DNA from: a virus
Length of the DNA: 32,615 nucleotides
Virus record (IMG/VR): IMGVR_UViG_3300008012_007091
Coordinates: 1 to 32,615 of that record
Direction: 5' to 3' (one strand)
The notes beneath the pieces were generated by a model that did not search any database, was not told the DNA's origin, and saw only the letters and a list, made by a program, of their open reading frames with translations. Position 1 is the stretch's first letter. The number at the start of each line of letters is the position of its first letter. Positions 11,278 through 32,615 of the stretch are shown here, piece by piece. The position numbers were made by a program, and so were the translations under genes.

Positions 11278-12096
11278 TCATGCCAACAAGTGTTTGAATT
11301 TGTTGGTGTTGTTTTGAACATATTTTGGTAATTGCTCTAAATCACATTTTACCAAATCTGTCCCAGGATTGTCGTAATTGTATCTGCCGTCAAACAGATC
11401 TTTTCTCTTGATTAATTTGTCTTTTATTTCTTCTATGGATAATTTTGTTTCTGGCCTGTAATTTATGAAAGACCAAATTTTTTTATAGATATCCGATTCT
11501 GGCAACACATAAGAGAAATGCCATCCTCCTGGATCGACCAATTGTGTTGGCAACGACCGATAGTTGCCATAACCCATATGATGGTTTGTGTGCATACGCA
11601 ATTCCTGGCAGTTGCCTAGTTTTCCAAATTTAATGGCTTTTGAATGCTTGTCCCATGGGGTGTAGGCAGGATTGATTAAATTTAATTTGCCTTGAAAACA
11701 AAGTTGTTTGAAAATAAAGAGATCATTTTTGTAATCTAGATTATCTATGATTGGAATTTCGTCCACATCGCACAACAAAATGAGATCCTCTTGTCCTGCG
11801 TCTTCCAAACCTTTTTTAACCTGTTCTCTTAGATTGTATTCACGTTTACGGCCATCACTGTGATTCACTGCCCATTCTGGTATCTGGTAATCCTCACTGT
11901 CTAGTATTTTGAAATATCTTATCTTGTGCTGAAATTTTTTATAAGGTTCGAATAGGAAACCTTTGTAGTTGCCAGCAAAATCATGATCCGATTCTACTAT
12001 GACAAAATAGTCGACATACTTGTCTAAAACTTCAAATCTTATTTCCAGTAGATCTTTTTCTAGGCCAGAGTACGTGACACAATCGTATGTTTTCAT
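11278..12096 (-). CDS. Glycosyltransferase family 17-like
   Basis: A 272-residue protein whose sequence fits GT17 (beta-1,4-N-acetylglucosaminyltransferase-like). It starts with VTYSGLEKDLLEIRFEVLD, continues with FVIVESDHDFAG, and has the metal/nucleotide DxD-type motif LLCDVDEIP (about 107-115). GGWHFSYVLP lies in the C-terminal half. GT17 enzymes of bacteria and phages are poorly characterised but are predicted to add sugars using UDP-sugars. No signal peptide, so cytoplasmic. Its ATG overlaps the stop of the DnaE-like fragment (ATGA). It may decorate virion or host glycans, together with the GT8-like and GNGES-type proteins encoded further right. Confidence 0.8.
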   Translation of the reverse strand: MKTYDCVTYSGLEKDLLEIRFEVLDKYVDYFVIVESDHDFAGNYKGFLFEPYKKFQHKIRYFKILDSEDYQIPEWAVNHSDGRKREYNLREQVKKGLEDAGQEDLILLCDVDEIPIIDNLDYKNDLFIFKQLCFQGKLNLINPAYTPWDKHSKAIKFGKLGNCQELRMHTNHHMGYGNYRSLPTQLVDPGGWHFSYVLPESDIYKKIWSFINYRPETKLSIEEIKDKLIKRKDLFDGRYNYDNPGTDLVKCDLEQLPKYVQNNTNKFKHLLA

Positions 12097-12617
12097 CTCA
12101 AGAATTCTTTATAATCCAGGTCATAAAGCAAAGGATTTATCTTGTGTACTCCTATCAGGAAAAGACAGAAACTTGAAACACTACTGCCTCTACCAACACC
12201 CCATACTATATTTTTTTCTCTCAGCGTATCAACAAAATAAATCAGAAACTGTAATACCTTGATGAAGTTTTTTTGTCGGAACAACTTCATTTCATCTTTG
12301 ACTCTTTGTGTTTCGGAGTCATCTCTGCATTTGTCCAACAACCATTCTTCAACATCTATTGTTTCATAGTGTGCCGGCATAAACCAATGTTCGCAGTTGG
12401 CTTTGTCAAAATCCTCCAACGAGATATGATTCTTGGGCACGGCTGATATCTCGGGCAGGTCTAGTTCTAGTTCTTTGAGTGCTTTGCTGTATTGTGTAAC
12501 ATCTTCAAGGTGTATGCCTGATATATCTATATCAGGATTGGCGTATATCTGTTCGATGATGTAGTCCTCAGAGAATACACAGTCGCCGTAATCATTTGTT
12601 TTTATCTTTTCCGCCAT
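12093..12617 (-). CDS. DNA polymerase III alpha (DnaE)-like fragment
   Basis: A 174-residue protein. The C-terminal 40 residues, WGVGRGSSVSSF then INPLLYDLDYKEFLR, match the palm-entry motif of bacterial DnaE/PolC (GxGRGSxxGS...DPLxxxLxFERFLNP). The frame stops just where DnaE would continue into the PDxDxDF motif that carries two catalytic aspartates, so the fragment cannot be a polymerase by itself. The N-terminal 130 residues are acidic and resemble nothing I recognise with certainty. The short form has intact overlaps with both neighbours (25 nt upstream, ATGA downstream), so it is maintained as a gene, not obviously a pseudogene. It may bind DNA, nucleotide or the replisome. Confidence 0.65.
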   Translation of the reverse strand: MAEKIKTNDYGDCVFSEDYIIEQIYANPDIDISGIHLEDVTQYSKALKELELDLPEISAVPKNHISLEDFDKANCEHWFMPAHYETIDVEEWLLDKCRDDSETQRVKDEMKLFRQKNFIKVLQFLIYFVDTLREKNIVWGVGRGSSVSSFCLFLIGVHKINPLLYDLDYKEFLR

Positions 12618-21627: not shown

Positions 21628-22369
21628 TCCATTTGATATCGGTTTTTTGTCCGTCAACTAATCTTTTTAGATCGGCATAACTTCCGGCCCTTATGTTTCC
21701 TCCAGCATACGTGAAGTAAGGTCTCAAAAATGGATTAAGATGTATGTTTTCTACCCTATTAAAAAAATAAAAATTTGTGCTTTTGAACTTGCGACATATC
21801 TGCGTCAGTTGAAAAAGCCATTCGTATTTAAGATAGGCTTTCATGCTGAGCCTGGATGGATAATTCCTTGTGTTTTTGTAAATGTTGTTCTGTATCCTAC
21901 TTTGTTCGCCATCCTTCGATTCCCACTGTCTAGCCCCTAGGATATCAAACCCCAATATGGCAATCTCGCTCGCACCCGATTCAGCGGCCAACAGCACTGC
22001 CGAACACCCTGAACCTCTTGCCTGTGAAAGATCTCTGCTGGACCATTTGCCTTTTTTTATGTCACCTCCGGCCCACATCCTGTACAGTTTAAGTCCATCG
22101 GGTATGTCGTTGTTTTCCTGTTCTGCCAAAAGGTAATCCCATTTGCTTATGTTTTCTATTCCAAAAATTTCCGCATTGAATTCTATTGATTGTTTTGCTT
22201 CCGCTAGTTCTTCATACATCTCAGGATTGACTGCTATTATTTTGTCACACAGGTCTGGGTGATCTCTATAAATGGCGTTGCATCCATAGATAGTTCCTTT
22301 GCCTTTGAGTGTGTCTATTGGGTAAATTTTTCTTGACTCTCCGTTGCCTATAACGAATGCGGTATCCAT
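21620..22369 (-). CDS. GNGES-motif glycan-type enzyme, copy 1 (DUF115/GT42-like)
   Basis: The start is the ATG at 22369 (MDTAFVIGNGESR), overlapping the IscA-type stop as TAATG; ten additional codons upstream are in frame but less likely. The N-terminal FVIGNGESR and downstream YGCNAIYRDHPD resemble the nucleotide-binding start of sialyltransferase GT42 and DUF115/MptE-like proteins (GNGPS...CN). AILGFDILGARQWE lies near two thirds of the length. The protein at 27069-27701 shares these landmarks, so the two are paralogues. Likely a cytoplasmic sugar transferase or related phospho-transfer enzyme, possibly acting on surface glycans. Family placement is tentative; paralogy is clear. Confidence 0.6.
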   Translation of the reverse strand: MDTAFVIGNGESRKIYPIDTLKGKGTIYGCNAIYRDHPDLCDKIIAVNPEMYEELAEAKQSIEFNAEIFGIENISKWDYLLAEQENNDIPDGLKLYRMWAGGDIKKGKWSSRDLSQARGSGCSAVLLAAESGASEIAILGFDILGARQWESKDGEQSRIQNNIYKNTRNYPSRLSMKAYLKYEWLFQLTQICRKFKSTNFYFFNRVENIHLNPFLRPYFTYAGGNIRAGSYADLKRLVDGQKTDIKWII

Positions 22370-22704
22370 TATACCCCGAATGATTCTCCGCAACCGCAAC
22401 CAGATGTGGCATTTGGATTTATAATTTCGAATTGTGATCCAAATGTCTCTTCTATCCAGTCTATTTTTGTGCCTGCCACATACAGCATAGAAGTTTCATC
22501 GACAACAAATCGACCTTTACCCCAATCTTCAAGTATGTCATCTTTGCCCACATTTTCCTTCTTGTCCACGAAACCCCATTCGTATTTGAATCCAGCACAA
22601 CCGCCACCCAACACAGTTAGGCTGACAGCATATTTGTCTGTGTTCTTGGCAAGAAGTTTTTCCATTTGTGCCTTTGCGGCATCTGTGATATCAAACCATT
22701 TCAT
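22369..22704 (-). CDS. A-type iron-sulfur cluster carrier (IscA/ErpA-like)
   Basis: A 111-residue protein with the HesB/IscA fold: the N-terminal helix ITDAAKAQMEKLLAK, then GGGCAGFKYEWGF with the first Cys (C36), FVVDETSMLYVAGTKIDW, and C-terminal SGCGCGESFGV with C103 and C105. These three Cys bind the transferred cluster. A-type carriers deliver Fe-S clusters to apo-proteins, and homologues occur in T4-like marine phages. The radical SAM enzyme encoded at 9403-10380 is a possible client (inference). The gene is co-directional with the SodC/UvsE cluster and coupled to the GNGES gene. Confidence 0.9.
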   Translation of the reverse strand: MKWFDITDAAKAQMEKLLAKNTDKYAVSLTVLGGGCAGFKYEWGFVDKKENVGKDDILEDWGKGRFVVDETSMLYVAGTKIDWIEETFGSQFEIINPNATSGCGCGESFGV

Positions 22705-23016: not shown

Positions 23017-23559
23017 TTATTCAGAAAGAACAATGACTCCACAGGCCAATCTATCACCTGCGTTACCAGTTTTTAATGATTCAGCATCACCACCTGAGCC
23101 TAGGTCGTCTTTGTTAGAATGGACAACTATAGATCTACCAACAATGGATCTTTCTCCCAATAGATCCACTCTCTTGGCAACAATCTTGCCTTTGGCTATT
23201 CCGTTTTCATCCGCTGTGATGTTCCCTAGATCCCCAACGTGTCCTTTTTCTAGATCTCCGTGATCAACGTCGTCTGGATTGTAATGTCCTCCTGCCGATT
23301 CACAACCTTTGCTTAGGTCACCAAATTCATGTATGTGGAAACCGTGTTCTCCCGGTTGCAGTCCTAAAATATTGTACATCATCAATGTGGGTGTGCCTGA
23401 CTTCTGCATCATAACCACACTGCCTTTTACTTTTTCGCTGTGTGTGAGTTGGCAGACTGCTCTTGCTTCTGATTCGTTTTCGTTTATTCTATTGATAGAT
23501 TCGCATTGGCACGCAGTCGCTTTGGTTCTTGGACAACGATCAAATTCTTTGAACTTCAT
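23017..23559 (-). CDS. sodC: Cu/Zn superoxide dismutase, no signal peptide
   Basis: A 180-residue protein with every expected metal ligand. GFHIHEFGD gives H75 and H77, GGHYNP the bridging H92, VDHGD H100, GHVGDLGN H107 and D110, and VVHSN H147. The structural disulfide cysteines C86 and C173 are present, as is the GNAGDRLACGVI signature. The enzyme converts superoxide to O2 and H2O2. Bacterial SodC is normally exported, but here the N-terminus is polar and Cys-rich (CPRTKATACQC; C9, C17, C19, C36), not a signal peptide, so it would act in the cytoplasm or after lysis. Its start overlaps the uvsE stop region by 20 nt, and a TAAATA box lies 6 nt before the ATG. Likely an auxiliary defence against oxidative stress. 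Confidence 0.93.
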   Translation of the reverse strand: MKFKEFDRCPRTKATACQCESINRINENESEARAVCQLTHSEKVKGSVVMMQKSGTPTLMMYNILGLQPGEHGFHIHEFGDLSKGCESAGGHYNPDDVDHGDLEKGHVGDLGNITADENGIAKGKIVAKRVDLLGERSIVGRSIVVHSNKDDLGSGGDAESLKTGNAGDRLACGVIVLSE

Positions 23560-24592
23560 TTTGGGTATTTAGCCACTGTTGATGAAGTTGTTCTGCGGCC
23601 ATGTTTTTGCCTTTTGCTTCTGACTGTATGTCAAAATGTTCGGCAAAACTCAATGCCCATTCGTTTGTCTTATGATTAGGGAACAGATCTGAATGTGCTC
23701 TCAGTTTCTGTTTCTTTGCTCCACGAGCCAGTAAATCTTTCATGTCGTGCATTTGGTTGTGCATCTCTTCCGGCTTGAGTCCTGCCATCGCCAATGCTTC
23801 ATCTCGGAAATATGAATAGTGCATAGTGGGTCTAACACCACGCCAACTGTCTATGACCCTCTTCACTCTGTCGTCGTCGGCCTGTATGTATTCTTCTGCT
23901 CTTATCAAATGATGGTGTATGTCCATTACCAACGCCACGTGTTTTTCAAGTTCGAGACTTGCGTCGAGACCCCAACTCATTTCGTCGTTCTCTATCGTGA
24001 TCAGATTCCTTGCCTCTGTTGACAGTCTGGGCAGTATGTCTATGATTCCTTGTGGACCTCTCCTGCCGGAGATGTGTACGTTTATCTTGCAACCATCCTG
24101 GAATGATCGACCAAAACCCATCCATCTTGCCATGTCAACGTGATATTCAAATTCCAATATGCTTCTCTCACGTATGTCTTCGGATTCCGATGACAGCACA
24201 CAAAATTGTCCTGGATGGAAACTGACTTTGACGTCGTGTTTCCTAGATGCTTCTCCAACCGGAGCAAATATCTTGGCAAGGTGATCCTGTATGTGTCGCT
24301 GTTGCCACCAATCTATCCAGTTCTTCTCTGTGTAACCCTGGAGCATCTCAGATCCAAGTCTGACCATCCTGCGTTCTGGTGGCAGTGTGGCCACCCTTTC
24401 TATCATTCTAACAGCGGCCGCGGCATTGTGATTCATTATGTCCCACTGTCGCTGTTCGGCATCTTCTGGGTGTTCCCTCAACCAACGCATCGTGGTTGAC
24501 CTGCCATTGAGATCCCTGTCCTTGGCGTTCACCTTCATTCCACCAAATTCGGACTTGTCGTTGAGCCATTTACAACAGAAACCTATACGCAT
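23540..24592 (-). CDS. uvsE: UV damage endonuclease UvsE/UvdE
   Basis: A 350-residue UVDE-family protein. MRIGFCCKW opens the TIM barrel, VSFHPGQFCVLSSE lies at about 123-136, and IENDEMSWG carries the metal-binding Glu-Asn-Asp. DIHHHL and HYSYFRDEA follow, and LRAHSDLF completes the set of His/Asp metal ligands. UvdE-type enzymes nick DNA 5' to UV photoproducts and some other lesions, starting excision repair. That suits a phage of sunlit surface water. The C-terminal 20 residues overlap the sodC start. G+C is visibly higher than in neighbouring genes. Upstream is a GT8-like gene ending 19 nt before the ATG. Confidence 0.93.
   Translation of the reverse strand: MRIGFCCKWLNDKSEFGGMKVNAKDRDLNGRSTTMRWLREHPEDAEQRQWDIMNHNAAAAVRMIERVATLPPERRMVRLGSEMLQGYTEKNWIDWWQQRHIQDHLAKIFAPVGEASRKHDVKVSFHPGQFCVLSSESEDIRERSILEFEYHVDMARWMGFGRSFQDGCKINVHISGRRGPQGIIDILPRLSTEARNLITIENDEMSWGLDASLELEKHVALVMDIHHHLIRAEEYIQADDDRVKRVIDSWRGVRPTMHYSYFRDEALAMAGLKPEEMHNQMHDMKDLLARGAKKQKLRAHSDLFPNHKTNEWALSFAEHFDIQSEAKGKNMAAEQLHQQWLNTQNEVQRI
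23566..23573 (-). promoter_or_regulatory. Late-promoter-like box at sodC start, inside uvsE
   Basis: Minus-strand GCTAAATA is six bases (CCCAAA) from the sodC ATG and lies within the uvsE coding end. There is no Shine-Dalgarno, so a late sodC transcript would be leaderless. Because it is coding sequence, chance occurrence is harder to exclude than for intergenic boxes. Confidence 0.35.
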
Positions 24593-29119: not shown

Positions 29120-29646
29120 TTTGTGAGACCTAGTTTTTTGTAATACCTTTGTACTTTTTTAGCCTGATAGTCACAGTCTGCCAAGGCATTGTGGGCGTCA
29201 ACTTTGGCGACCTCTGTCTCCTTGAAAAGTGAGAACAATGTTCGTGAGTCTCTGATGGCCCAATATTGCCATGGAACAGGTTTCTCCATTTGTGCGTAGA
29301 GATCTTGTAAAATAGCATAATCAAACAACGGACCTTGACACCAAAAAACGTCAACGCCAACACTCCATTTGTTGATTGCCTTTATGGTATCATCGAGACT
29401 GATCCTGTCAGATTCTCCAAGGGCATCTTCTCTTATGTGTTCCGGCTGTGTTGCCCACCAATCCAGGGTTTCCTGCATCACGTGTCTGCCCTTTTCGGTC
29501 TGAGAATCAACATCCACTTTGAAATACAATGGATCATAGGGTTCTTTATTGGTATAGGGATCAAACTTGATTGCTCCCAGAGAAAGTATCACAGCATCCG
29601 GTCGAGTGCTCAGTGTTTCTAGGTCTATCATAGCGTGGATTGCCAT
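29116..29646 (-). CDS. DnaQ-fold 3'-5' exonuclease
   Basis: A 176-residue RNase H-fold exonuclease. IDLETLSTRPDAVILSLGAI contains the Exo I motif DxE (D8, E10), CQGPLFDYAILQDL corresponds to Exo II with its Asp, and VDAHNALADCDYQAKK gives Exo III with His and Asp (HxxxxD). All four metal-binding acidic residues and the His are in place. It resembles the Rv2179c-like/Exonuc_VIII-like and phage DexA-type exonucleases, which degrade ssDNA or RNA ends; substrate cannot be told. The ATG overlaps the amidinotransferase stop (TAATG). Confidence 0.88.
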   Translation of the reverse strand: MAIHAMIDLETLSTRPDAVILSLGAIKFDPYTNKEPYDPLYFKVDVDSQTEKGRHVMQETLDWWATQPEHIREDALGESDRISLDDTIKAINKWSVGVDVFWCQGPLFDYAILQDLYAQMEKPVPWQYWAIRDSRTLFSLFKETEVAKVDAHNALADCDYQAKKVQRYYKKLGLTK

Positions 29647-30305
29647 TAGTTTATGTACTCCATATAGTTTGAATTTGTTCTTTCAGGAAAATAGTTTTGC
29701 TTTCCGCCTTCCCTTTCTATGTCACAGGTTATGCAGTGTAGGCCTCCGTCCCAAAAACTTCTTGTCTTGAAATCTACCAGATGCACATTAATTCCTTTTT
29801 TTGATAGCCAATCAAATAACTTTTCATTGTGAGCAATTGCCAATACATTTTTCTCATCTATGACCAACATATTGACTTCAAAAACTGTTTCACGTATATC
29901 ACCCACCCAGTCTCTGGCAAATTTTTCTAGATGACTGTTGAACTTGGCGTTCTTCATGATTTCCTCGTCATCTATGAACCAGTTGCAGTTGAAATCGGCC
30001 ATTGTGGGTTCGTCTAAATAGTATATGTCCCAATTGGGAAAAGTCCGAGAGTATTCTTTGTTGTAGAAAGTGGACACAATGACTCCAGGAGCAACAGGGC
30101 AAAAAATTCCATCGCTGTGTCCATACGTGTCTGTGTTCTTTTTATTGACCTGTATCCTAAAATTTTTTGACCATTCCTTTATGATGGGTTCAACTAGATG
30201 CCACCAATCCTTGTGCGGTCCCCAATCAACCACAATGTCTCTGCCCAGTCTCACAATAGATGGCGTGTTTAGACAGGCAAGGCCTCCATCGTTGGCCTCA
30301 ACCAC
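29646..30305 (-). CDS. Amidinotransferase-like protein, C-terminal half
   Basis: A 219-residue segment of the pentein (guanidino-group-modifying) fold. TYGHSDGIFCPVAPG holds the catalytic His-x-Asp pair (H63, D65), and SFWDGGLHCITCDIE holds the catalytic Cys (C191) in a GLHC context typical of glycine/inosamine amidinotransferases and arginine deiminases. The N-terminal half is encoded directly upstream in the same frame, separated by one TAG. This half could start at GTG 30305, which has AAGG five bases upstream and a TTAAATA box ending 10 nt upstream. Without the N-terminal blades the fold is incomplete. It might be a subunit of a split enzyme or the product of readthrough. Confidence 0.75.
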   Translation of the reverse strand: MVEANDGGLACLNTPSIVRLGRDIVVDWGPHKDWWHLVEPIIKEWSKNFRIQVNKKNTDTYGHSDGIFCPVAPGVIVSTFYNKEYSRTFPNWDIYYLDEPTMADFNCNWFIDDEEIMKNAKFNSHLEKFARDWVGDIRETVFEVNMLVIDEKNVLAIAHNEKLFDWLSKKGINVHLVDFKTRSFWDGGLHCITCDIEREGGKQNYFPERTNSNYMEYIN

Positions 30306-30314
30306 TTTGCCTTG

Positions 30315-30317
30315 CTA
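30315..30317 (-). other. In-frame amber codon splitting the amidinotransferase
   Basis: TAG in the context AAA-TAG-CAA-GGC. The frame before (HLDKLK) and after (QGKVVEANDGG) is the same, with no shift, and together they give about 342 codons, a usual length for glycine/inosamine amidinotransferases. TAG is the ordinary stop of several other genes in the window (for example at 7629, 10380 and 31607), so this is a single special stop. Confidence 0.8.
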
Positions 30318-30674
30318 TTTAAGTTTATCAAGATGCGACTGCCATGGGTCTTTCTTGTAGTAATTCCGTAAATGATAAAAAGTGTCTCCCAGAGTTATAT
30401 TTTCATCACGAGGCACAATAGGTGGCTTCATTAGATATCCTTTGCTATTGGTATAGATGTTAGGGTCGCTGTCGAATTCAGGTCTTCTCACGGTAACACC
30501 AAATTCCTGCAATTTTTTCTCTATGCCATTGAGATCTTTCTTGGTCATTTCGGTTATTGTGTGGAAAGCGTCTCTCGTATCACTTTCCAGATCGTCGTAG
30601 AAAGATTTCGGGTAACAATCACCCAACCATATTTCTTTCAAGGGTTGGAACCCACTATAAGAATTTATTGACAT
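30315..30674 (-). CDS. Amidinotransferase-like protein, N-terminal half
   Basis: A 119-residue segment ending at the amber codon. SGFQPLKEIWLGDCYP is the usual first strand of amidinotransferases, and PPIVPRDENITLG matches the conserved RxRD region. It lacks the His and Cys of the catalytic triad, which are in the downstream segment. The ATG is placed one base after the predicted transcription start of a near-consensus sigma-70 promoter. The complete enzyme would move an amidino group from arginine to an amine (as in StrB or glycine amidinotransferase). A released N-terminal domain alone is unlikely to be catalytic. Confidence 0.75.
   Translation of the reverse strand: MSINSYSGFQPLKEIWLGDCYPKSFYDDLESDTRDAFHTITEMTKKDLNGIEKKLQEFGVTVRRPEFDSDPNIYTNSKGYLMKPPIVPRDENITLGDTFYHLRNYYKKDPWQSHLDKLK
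30316..30323 (-). promoter_or_regulatory. Late-promoter-like box over the amber codon
   Basis: Minus-strand CTTAAATA overlaps the amber codon by two bases and ends 10 nt before the GTG start at 30305, with AAGG as a possible Shine-Dalgarno in between. It could drive separate late synthesis of the C-terminal half. The sequence is also coding (Leu-Lys), so chance is possible. Confidence 0.35.
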
Positions 30675-30942: not shown

Positions 30943-30980
30943 ATGTGTCTGCATCCATTAAACGAGCACATCTTAATTCT

Positions 30981-30988
30981 GGTAAATA
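30981..30988 (+). promoter_or_regulatory. Late-promoter-like box for the membrane-protein pair
   Basis: Plus-strand GGTAAATA lies 10 nt before ATG 30999. This supports 30999 rather than the in-frame ATG at 30945 as the true start, since the latter lies upstream of the box. Confidence 0.45.
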
Positions 30989-30998
30989 CACACAGATT

Positions 30999-31277
30999 AT
31001 GAACTTTATCACGTTGGTAGCAGAAGTGGGTTTTCCAATAGCGGGTGCCATAGCCGCGGGCCTGTTTGTGTTCGTTACTTTGAAATTCATCCTGGCATCG
31101 GTAACAGGAAGTGTCAACAGCCTGAAAGCCATAATAGGTGCCCTGGACAACAGGGTGCAGACCATGAACAACGACCTGGTCAAGATTGACGCTCTATTGA
31201 GTCACGTGTTAAAGATCAGACCCAACGTGGAACGTATAGCCGCCAATGAGGGCAAGGAAGATGCGAGGAGAGATTAG
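30999..31277 (+). CDS. Small membrane protein, tandem paralogue 1 (possible holin)
   Basis: From ATG 30999 (MNFITLVAEVGFPIAG) the product is about 92 residues: one membrane segment (VGFPIAGAIAAGLFVFVTL) and then an amphipathic helix with heptad pattern (GALDNRVQTMNNDLVKIDALL), ending charged. An in-frame ATG at 30945 would add 18 hydrophilic residues. The GFPI...GxFVF membrane segment and the LDN-(D/R) helix are also found in the next gene, so the two are tandem duplicates. The architecture, one N-terminal membrane segment plus a cytoplasmic coiled coil, recalls BhlA/UviB-type small holins and YvrJ-like proteins. G+C is higher than in neighbouring genes. Confidence 0.6.
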   Translation: MNFITLVAEVGFPIAGAIAAGLFVFVTLKFILASVTGSVNSLKAIIGALDNRVQTMNNDLVKIDALLSHVLKIRPNVERIAANEGKEDARRD

Positions 31278-31280
31278 GTT

Positions 31281-31607
31281 ATGGACATAGCACAACTCAT
31301 CAAAGACTTTGGCTTTCCTATAGTGGCCGCCATGGGACTAGGCTACTTTGTTTTCTACATATGGAAATGGGTCACGGAAGAGATCAAACCCGTGCTGGGC
31401 AGTGCCTCATCGACTCTGATCAAACTGGTCGATCGTGTGCGAATGCTGGACAATGACATGATCCGACTCAACACCAAACTGGCCATGGTGCTGGAGTACA
31501 AGGAAGAGATCATCAAGTCCGGACGTTCGGACGAACTGGACGAGATACTGGCCAAGTACAAGAGTAAATCTGAGAGTTTTGATAGCACTGGTGACACTAA
31601 GAAATAG
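31281..31607 (+). CDS. Small membrane protein, tandem paralogue 2 (possible holin)
   Basis: A 108-residue paralogue of the preceding gene, 3 nt downstream, with GAGGAG inside the preceding coding end as its Shine-Dalgarno. FGFPIVAAMGLGYFVFYIW is the membrane segment (about 11-29), and MLDNDMIRLNTKLAMVLEYKEEI the coiled-coil region; the tail is charged. The parallel GFPI/FVF/LDND features show common ancestry, while the rest is diverged. Two unequal small membrane proteins could be a holin/antiholin or hetero-oligomer pair. Its stop overlaps the convergent cyclase gene by 11 nt. Confidence 0.6.
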   Translation: MDIAQLIKDFGFPIVAAMGLGYFVFYIWKWVTEEIKPVLGSASSTLIKLVDRVRMLDNDMIRLNTKLAMVLEYKEEIIKSGRSDELDEILAKYKSKSESFDSTGDTKK

Positions 31608-32615
31608 TGTACACTTTAACTGCCTCTGATTTGCCTTTTACAGTTATCTCATCAACATAGTCAAAATTGTAATTGTATTTCACGGCCTTGACCGTGTCCT
31701 CACCTATCACAAGTGTCTTGCCCAGGGTCTTACTGCTACTTTCCAATCTTGATGCCAGATTCACAGCATCACCTATCACCGAGTAATCGAACCTCTGATT
31801 GGATCCCATATTGCCCACAAGTGCCTCACCTGTGTTGATACCTATTCCTATGTTGATGTTCGGAAGTCCTTCTGCTGTGAGTTCTTGATTCAACAGTTTC
31901 AATTCCGCCTGCATCTCGAGTGCGGCCTGTACTGCGTGTTCCTCGTGTTCGCCATCGTCTATGGGTGCGTTCCAGAATGCCATTATGCAGTCGCCCATGA
32001 ACTTGTCTATGGTTCCACCGTTCTTTATTATGATATCCGTCATACGTGTTAGGAACCTGTTTATCAGTTTTGTTAGGCCTTCAGGATTTCCTTTGTACTT
32101 TTCACTGATGGGAGTGAAGCCACGTATGTCCGAAAACATAAATGTCATTGTTTTGGTTTCACCACCCAATTTTAACAAACCGGGATCCTTCTGTAGTTTC
32201 TTGACCATGGCAGGTGCCAGGTAGTGTTCGAACTGTTTCTTGATCTGTTGCTTTTGGAAAAATTCTTTTACGAAACGATTGAAAATGGCGTGGAAACTGG
32301 TAATGGTAATAACCAAATATAACCAACTGATATCCCACAGTTGTAGGTGCCTAGTGAATGCAAAATAACTGGCGTATGCCGACCCAGAATAAATTAGTAG
32401 TAGTAGGGTGCCTATCAGCCAGTATGGGGCGTAAGCGGCGCTTAAAATTAGAATAAAGGCTATAATAGCGGTGCTTATATACTCTAAAAAATTCGCATAA
32501 TCAAGCCTCACAATAGTGTCTCCATTGATGATTGTTTGTAGAGAAACAGCAGTGGTAATATGAGAATATTCTTCACCATTGGGTGTGGCTATGACTCCGC
32601 CAATACCTTCCGCGG
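31597..32615 (-). CDS. CHASE2-type class III adenylate cyclase, 5' end beyond window
   Basis: The frame is open to the right edge: 34 codons upstream of a GTG at 32511 are free of stops and encode IATPNGEEYSHI, TAVSLQTIINGDTI, the typical end of an extracytoplasmic CHASE2 sensor domain. Three membrane segments follow (AIIAFILILSAAY, IGTLLLLIYSG, WLYLVITIT), then the cyclase domain. Numbering from 32511, metal Asp 128 (MFSDIRGF) and Asp 174 (KFMGDCIMAF) are present, as are substrate Lys 170, Ser 244 at the Thr/Asp specificity position, and transition-state Asn 251 and Arg 255 (VNLASRLE). Lys plus Ser/Thr points to adenylate rather than guanylate cyclase. The class makes cAMP from ATP, gated by an outside signal. 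The N-terminal part is missing. Confidence 0.88.
   Translation of the reverse strand, partial: AEGIGGVIATPNGEEYSHITTAVSLQTIINGDTIVRLDYANFLEYISTAIIAFILILSAAYAPYWLIGTLLLLIYSGSAYASYFAFTRHLQLWDISWLYLVITITSFHAIFNRFVKEFFQKQQIKKQFEHYLAPAMVKKLQKDPGLLKLGGETKTMTFMFSDIRGFTPISEKYKGNPEGLTKLINRFLTRMTDIIIKNGGTIDKFMGDCIMAFWNAPIDDGEHEEHAVQAALEMQAELKLLNQELTAEGLPNINIGIGINTGEALVGNMGSNQRFDYSVIGDAVNLASRLESSSKTLGKTLVIGEDTVKAVKYNYNFDYVDEITVKGKSEAVKVYTIS

Follow-up and report, generated by a model that had tools for sequence, protein, structure and literature searches.

The window analyzed here is the whole of IMG/VR record IMGVR_UViG_3300008012_007091, a virus contig of 32,615 bases with a G+C content of 39.6% that ends at position 32615. 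Its last frame, on the minus strand, is open at the contig edge (31597 to beyond 32613) and encodes the C-terminal part of a CHASE2 class III adenylate cyclase. Two small plus-strand genes adjoin it. The features are as follows.

30945..31277, plus strand: second small protein, phrog_18771, paralogue of the 31281..31607 protein; likely start at 30999
31281..31607, plus strand: small protein, phrog_18771, convergent with the cyclase gene and overlapping its end by 11 bases
31597..32613, minus strand: CHASE2 class III adenylate cyclase, C-terminal 338 aa (residues 269–606 of 606); the 5′ end is outside the contig and is present in the related locus L017
31603..32157, minus strand: class III cyclase catalytic domain (PF00211 match)
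about 31747–31749, minus strand: transition-state residue R557
about 31759–31761, minus strand: transition-state residue N553
about 31780–31782, minus strand: substrate-pair residue S546
about 31990–31992, minus strand: metal Asp D476
about 32002–32004, minus strand: substrate-pair residue K472
about 32128–32130, minus strand: metal Asp D430
32200..32250, minus strand: sensor/catalytic recombination junction at approximately residue 391, QIKKQFEHYL, from comparison of related phages
32230..32496, minus strand: three membrane helices (residues 308–396; AlphaFold2 helices 308–329, 332–357 and 364–396)
32500..32613, minus strand: end of the periplasmic CHASE2 domain (residues 269–306), from the PF05226 extent, with coordinates by offset to L017

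The window is 99.88% identical to L017 over 9,016 bp and L017 extends beyond the window edge. In L017 the cyclase frame runs on to an ATG and gives a protein of 606 aa (L017:1165–2985), thus the window gene corresponds to residues 269–606. The GTG at position 32511 is internal to the frame, as a first-pass annotation of the sequence had proposed in reading the frame past this apparent start to the window edge. That annotation had named an upstream stop or frameshift, a chimeric join near 31600, or host chromosomal genes just past the edge as evidence that would count against it, and had suggested that the sequence beyond 32615 be read. In L017 the region around the edge is free of stops, frameshifts and joins, and beyond it are the full CHASE2 domain and, directly upstream of the cyclase gene, a curlin-repeat gene (L017:1–921, PF07012, E = 5e-8).

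The complete protein displays a CHASE2 domain at residues 14–306 (PF05226, E = 1.7e-41) and a cyclase domain at residues 421–605. The Guanylate_cyc match (PF00211) at window positions 31603–32157 has E-values of 1.5e-27 and 4.4e-25 in two Pfam searches, and its score of 88.8 bits against a curated cut-off of 21.9 places the domain in class III. An AlphaFold2 model of the single chain, run on an alignment of window-related loci only (mean pLDDT 86), displays a membrane helix at the N-terminus, followed by a periplasmic domain, a further three membrane helices and the catalytic domain. Pfam and the model together give the layout of a CHASE2 sensor, i.e. an N-terminal helix, a periplasmic CHASE2 domain, three helices and a cytoplasmic output domain. 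All six catalytic residues are present: D430, D476, K472, S546, N553 and R557. The end of CHASE2, the three helices and the complete catalytic set had been recognized earlier from the letters alone and are borne out here.

The window gene encodes part of a membrane sensor protein that is predicted from its sequence to make cAMP. The closest clean PDB match of the modelled catalytic domain is Pseudomonas aeruginosa CyaB (3r5g, TM 0.88 by target length). CyaB shares the class III catalytic fold with the phage cyclase at 41% identity, however the 3r5g structure is the catalytic domain alone and the phage CHASE2 sensor has no counterpart there.

The window carries T4-type replication genes, i.e. 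a clamp loader (phrog_168), PhoH (phrog_170) and an exonuclease (phrog_255), and by these genes it appears to be from a marine T4-type phage, in agreement with the T4-like assignment of the first-pass annotation. The clamp loaders nearest to that of the window are from Pseudomonas PA5oct-type phages (52%). The gene block downstream of the cyclase is common to dozens of viral contigs. Because the gene lies at the extreme end of the record, this part of the contig could be of host origin or the product of a chimeric assembly. Against this, L017 displays the same junction and continues past it, the same block is found beside the cyclase in dozens of contigs, and cultured phages with complete genomes have homologues. 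Both readings are ruled out in substance by L017 and by these phages, and almost no weight is given to them. Judged from its gene content the contig is phage and not host, and the earlier view that the cyclase is phage-borne stands. Matches to records labelled "Acinetobacter phage MD-2021a" were set aside as mislabelled bacterial contigs, which carry mfd, isc and hsc genes; one record of that name, L084 (CAKLQF020000009.1), resembles a bacterial chromosome fragment.

Several other genes in the window were noted. The protein encoded at 31281..31607 displays, by eye, one apparent membrane segment and a coiled coil. A role for the phrog_18771 pair as holins finds no Pfam support. A homologous pair is directly upstream of csgF in the cultured phages HTVC008M and Melnitz, i.e. 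at the opposite end of the cassette described below, and the orientation of the pair relative to the cyclase varies between loci. An amidinotransferase-like gene (by reading) at 29646–30674 on the minus strand contains an in-frame stop at about 30317 that divides it in two. A sense codon and an open frame are seen at this position in L017, thus the stop reflects either sequence variation or a sequencing error in the window contig. Minus-strand genes for a Cu/Zn superoxide dismutase (PF00080), UvdE (PF03851) and an A-type Fe-S carrier (PF01521) are close together at 23017–24592 and 22369–22704. The Fe-S carrier, a 6-pyruvoyl tetrahydropterin synthase-like protein and a HIT protein are in a gene order common to dozens of contigs. 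Positions 12093–12617 (minus strand) encode a free-standing 174 aa fragment of the DNA polymerase III alpha NTPase domain (PF07733, phrog_11127).

Relatives of the cyclase are encoded by at least 306 IMG/VR stretches. Among sequenced phages, full-length relatives were found only in HTVC008M (AGE60353.1, annotated as an adenylate/guanylyl cyclase) and four Melnitz strains (homologue QZI95054.1), with identities over the window part of 49% and 46%, respectively. In both cultured phages the cyclase is the last gene of the order csgF-csgG-curlin-FecR-curlin-cyclase, and the same order is present in L012 and L013. L017 reaches only 1.2 kb upstream of its cyclase; all three of csgF, csgG and FecR occur in L012 and L013, with 73% identity in the sensor. 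On this comparison of gene order and sequence the window-type cyclase probably belongs to a curli-type (type VIII secretion) cassette for a secreted fibre. A third arrangement has csgF-csgG-curlin-FecR divergent from the cyclase.

A CHASE2 cyclase within a phage curli cassette is already published and is not new as a gene type. The cyclase and FecR have been described as part of the curli (T8SS) clusters of podo- and myo-type pelagiphages and as absent from bacterial curli operons; the podophages of the HTVC023P type have the adenylate cyclase of the curli cassette (PMC9599517, 2022). Two other papers describe the curli genes with no mention of the cyclase in their main text (PMC7029224; PMC9004378). 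The first-pass annotation, in holding that sensor cyclases have no established role in tailed phages, had overlooked HTVC008M, Melnitz and the 2022 paper. The architecture and cassette-end position of the HTVC008M and Melnitz cyclases are like those of the window-type gene; however the window phage cyclase adjoins a different gene block, and in comparison with Melnitz its identity is 67% in the sensor but only 41% in the catalytic half.

A different set of genes is found upstream of the cyclase in L026, L036, L049, L059, L064 and others. In L026, L036, L049 and L064 the order is FecR-adhesin/TolC/ABC-membrane/HlyD-cyclase. The FecR-type adhesin displays cadherin repeats and is 1,696 aa long where complete (L170). 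The TolC-type outer-membrane protein (PF02321, E = 3.5e-51) and the HlyD adaptor (PF13437) are accompanied by an ABC protein (L036:5294–6043 and relatives) that consists of a membrane part of about 250 aa, in which no ATPase domain is recognized. No dedicated ATPase for this type I secretion (T1SS)-like cassette was found; the single strong ABC_tran match in the 137-kb contig G032 is SufC-like, lies beside SufB-like and SufE-like genes (by reading) and was rejected as the cassette ATPase. Since the ABC protein has no recognized ATPase domain, this system may differ in its working from a classical T1SS. Across 50,697 phage records no convincing relative of the HlyD gene was found, and no paper on it came to light. 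In other observations made by reading, the phage contig of L064 (G032; L171 and L170) encodes SufB-, SufE- and SufC-like Fe-S assembly proteins, together with a TonB-dependent receptor, a protein resembling amidophosphoribosyltransferase and an HtrA-like protease immediately ahead of the FecR adhesin.

LapA-type adhesins are secreted by T1SS. The alternative phage cassette is LapA-like in combining a large adhesin that has a distinct N-terminal domain with TolC and HlyD parts. It differs from LapA systems in that the N-terminal domain of the phage adhesin is FecR and the ABC protein lacks a recognized ATPase domain.

At least five of the eight downstream block genes are kept in 14 of 16 loci with a curli-type sensor and in 29 of 42 with a T1SS-type sensor. 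The same downstream block is thus beside both, and therefore the curli and T1SS-like cassettes occupy one slot in one phage group. Both cyclase types, T1SS and curli, occur together on the contig L038, and two cyclase copies are also present in L040, L053 and L070. A literature search on type I secretion cassettes in SAR11-type phages, with subscription papers mostly outside its coverage, gave nothing relevant, and no report has been found of a T1SS-like cassette replacing curli with the same downstream genes.

The two halves of the cyclase display different histories. Among 24 proteins, the mean identity between curli-type and T1SS-type members is 31% in the sensor and 68% in the catalytic domain. 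For the pair L026/L032, identity is 27% in the sensor and 99% in the catalytic domain; the reverse is seen for L017 and L015, with 97% and 53%, respectively. Cassette type changes twice on the sensor tree, the minimum for three states, and six to seven times on the catalytic tree. Catalytic trees constrained to one clade per cassette group are rejected (AU p = 3.6e-4, 1.0e-6 and 4.2e-4). A sharp step in DNA identity marks the linker that follows the final membrane helix, and the L026 and L032 forms align only from nt position 1236 onward (96.5%). Part of this evidence is from metagenome contigs; however six separate datasets contain the L026 form at 100% identity and three contain the L032 form at 99.9% or more, and this recurrence argues against chance chimeras. 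As read from these alignments and trees, the sensor half follows cassette type and the catalytic half is exchanged at a single junction. No report has been found of such a linkage between sensor half and cassette with an exchanged catalytic half. We read the mosaic as a cassette-specific input joined to a common output.

Since the crossover falls where the catalytic domain begins and the flank beyond it is shared (L026/L032), the cyclase domain could also be kept mainly as a homology anchor for cassette exchange, its enzymatic output mattering little. The Melnitz cyclase would fit this, as it displays Ser in place of the transition-state Asn, in addition to Asp in place of the substrate-pair Ser. 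In Melnitz the catalytic domain may have an altered activity or none, thus cyclase activity need not hold for all members. The Melnitz-3 cyclase (L083:14185–16236) has a C-terminal extension besides both active-site changes. Against the anchor interpretation, catalytic residues are kept in nearly all aligned members: all six letters are present in 22 of 24 phage proteins, and the L015 protein has Thr for the substrate-pair Ser, a permitted substitution. In addition, dN/dS for pairs with measurable dS is about 0.12 in the sensor half and 0.03–0.13 in the catalytic half, values by which the gene is under purifying selection. A role confined to recombination is considered improbable.

A Pycsar-type cyclase (cCMP/cUMP) of defence or counter-defence was also considered, as the catalytic domain is recognized by the PycC models of PADLOC (E = 1e-29 at best, for the full protein). 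These models are themselves class III cyclases and would match many such proteins, so the matches are regarded as generic. No Pycsar effector, PycTIR or PycTM, adjoins the gene and no PADLOC model matches the two adjacent small genes. The purine-type Lys/Ser pair, the CHASE2 sensor and the secretion neighbours all differ from a Pycsar system as well. The Pycsar reading is rejected as very improbable.

The cAMP predicted as product would need a receptor. The cNMP-binding domain PF00027 is absent from HTVC008M, Melnitz and 12 related contigs, and a second HMM made from bacterial cNMP-binding domains has no match in 3,114 phage open reading frames. A phage-encoded cAMP receptor is accordingly rejected at the level of these two models, and since the phage cassettes have no cNMP-binding domain, the target of cAMP in the infected cell must be a host protein or an unrecognized phage protein. 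The first-pass annotation had proposed that a phage raising host cAMP in response to a periplasmic signal could rewire host metabolism or defence. In the form considered here, the cyclase would reprogram host transcription or metabolism through a host CRP-type regulator, which is near an idea advanced for curli regulation (PMC9599517). The catalytic set is complete, as this would require; a host receptor would be needed, and cNMP-binding proteins occur in 176 of the 240 Alphaproteobacterial genomes sampled and are thus common there. However five small proteorhodopsin-bearing Alphaproteobacterial genomes, which have SAR11-like size and G+C and may be SAR11, show neither a cNMP-binding domain nor a class III cyclase. 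Furthermore, the sensor half co-varies with the secretion cassette and not with the rest of the phage genome. The gene is part of a secreted-fibre cassette, and the proposal of a cyclase that acts alone on host cAMP finds no support here; reprogramming through a host regulator is considered rather unlikely.

The 80 best bacterial relatives are nearly all from Alphaproteobacteria. These cyclases, e.g. in Bradyrhizobium and AG-404-M02, also combine CHASE2 with a class III domain; they are longer than the phage protein and about 35%–40% identical to it. FecR and/or T1SS genes adjoin them in most loci. Sixty bacterial loci offer more than 4 kb of upstream sequence. In 30 of them a FecR-type open reading frame lies on the same strand within 4 kb, directly adjacent in 24, and 43 have FecR or type I secretion genes anywhere in the locus.

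The marine single-cell genome AG-404-M02 (L145) displays an ABC transporter, a cNMP-binding HlyD, a CHASE2 cyclase and two small cNMP-binding proteins; the cNMP-binding domain is N-terminal in HlyD. HlyD, ABC and FecR-RTX protein genes are on the opposite strand. L092, L100, L128 and L143 each have a long cNMP-binding open reading frame before the cyclase and one or more small ones after it; in L092 the long frame was confirmed as HlyD. The cNMP-binding domain is absent from the cyclase-adjacent HlyD in nine other bacterial loci tested. In the five marine loci, the secretion apparatus itself could be a direct target of cAMP, since the HlyD adaptor next to the cyclase has a cNMP-binding domain. 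The phage cassettes lack such domains, which these bacterial loci have both within the adaptor and next to it. No report has been found of an Alphaproteobacterial cyclase beside FecR and type I secretion genes, nor of the five loci with a cNMP-binding HlyD.

The cyclase is best explained, at a probability of roughly 0.55, as a sensor-reporter of a phage-borne cassette for secretion of a fibre or adhesin, which in the window phage is of the curli type. Because the sensor half follows cassette type, monitoring of the phage's own export machinery is suggested. The periplasmic CHASE2 domain would read the export state of the cassette's own FecR or fibre component and would switch a homodimeric class IIIb catalytic domain to make cAMP. 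Here cAMP as product, FecR or fibre export as signal and homodimeric action are all inferred, and the sensing of FecR by CHASE2 is suggested by co-location and co-variation. In the five marine bacterial loci the corresponding path would be from export state to CHASE2, to cAMP, to the secretion adaptor.

The sensor-reporter function may be accompanied by a more general property, to which about an even chance is given. The cyclase would be an interchangeable joint, in which a periplasmic sensor dedicated to one secretion cassette out of two or more unrelated kinds, i.e. curli fibres or a FecR-cadherin adhesin with TolC/HlyD parts, is placed on a common, freely recombining cAMP-making domain. If this is true, phages swap whole fibre-secretion systems and retain the same second-messenger output.

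To our knowledge, it is not known in general what CHASE2 domains sense, and the sensor/catalytic mosaic is a natural set of chimeras for finding their signals. The export-to-adaptor logic of the bacterial relatives could explain why FecR and a cyclase accompany the phage curli genes, a question left open by the 2022 paper (PMC9599517). A phage that installs a fibre-secretion machine together with a second-messenger receptor that monitors it would represent an unusual layer of phage control.
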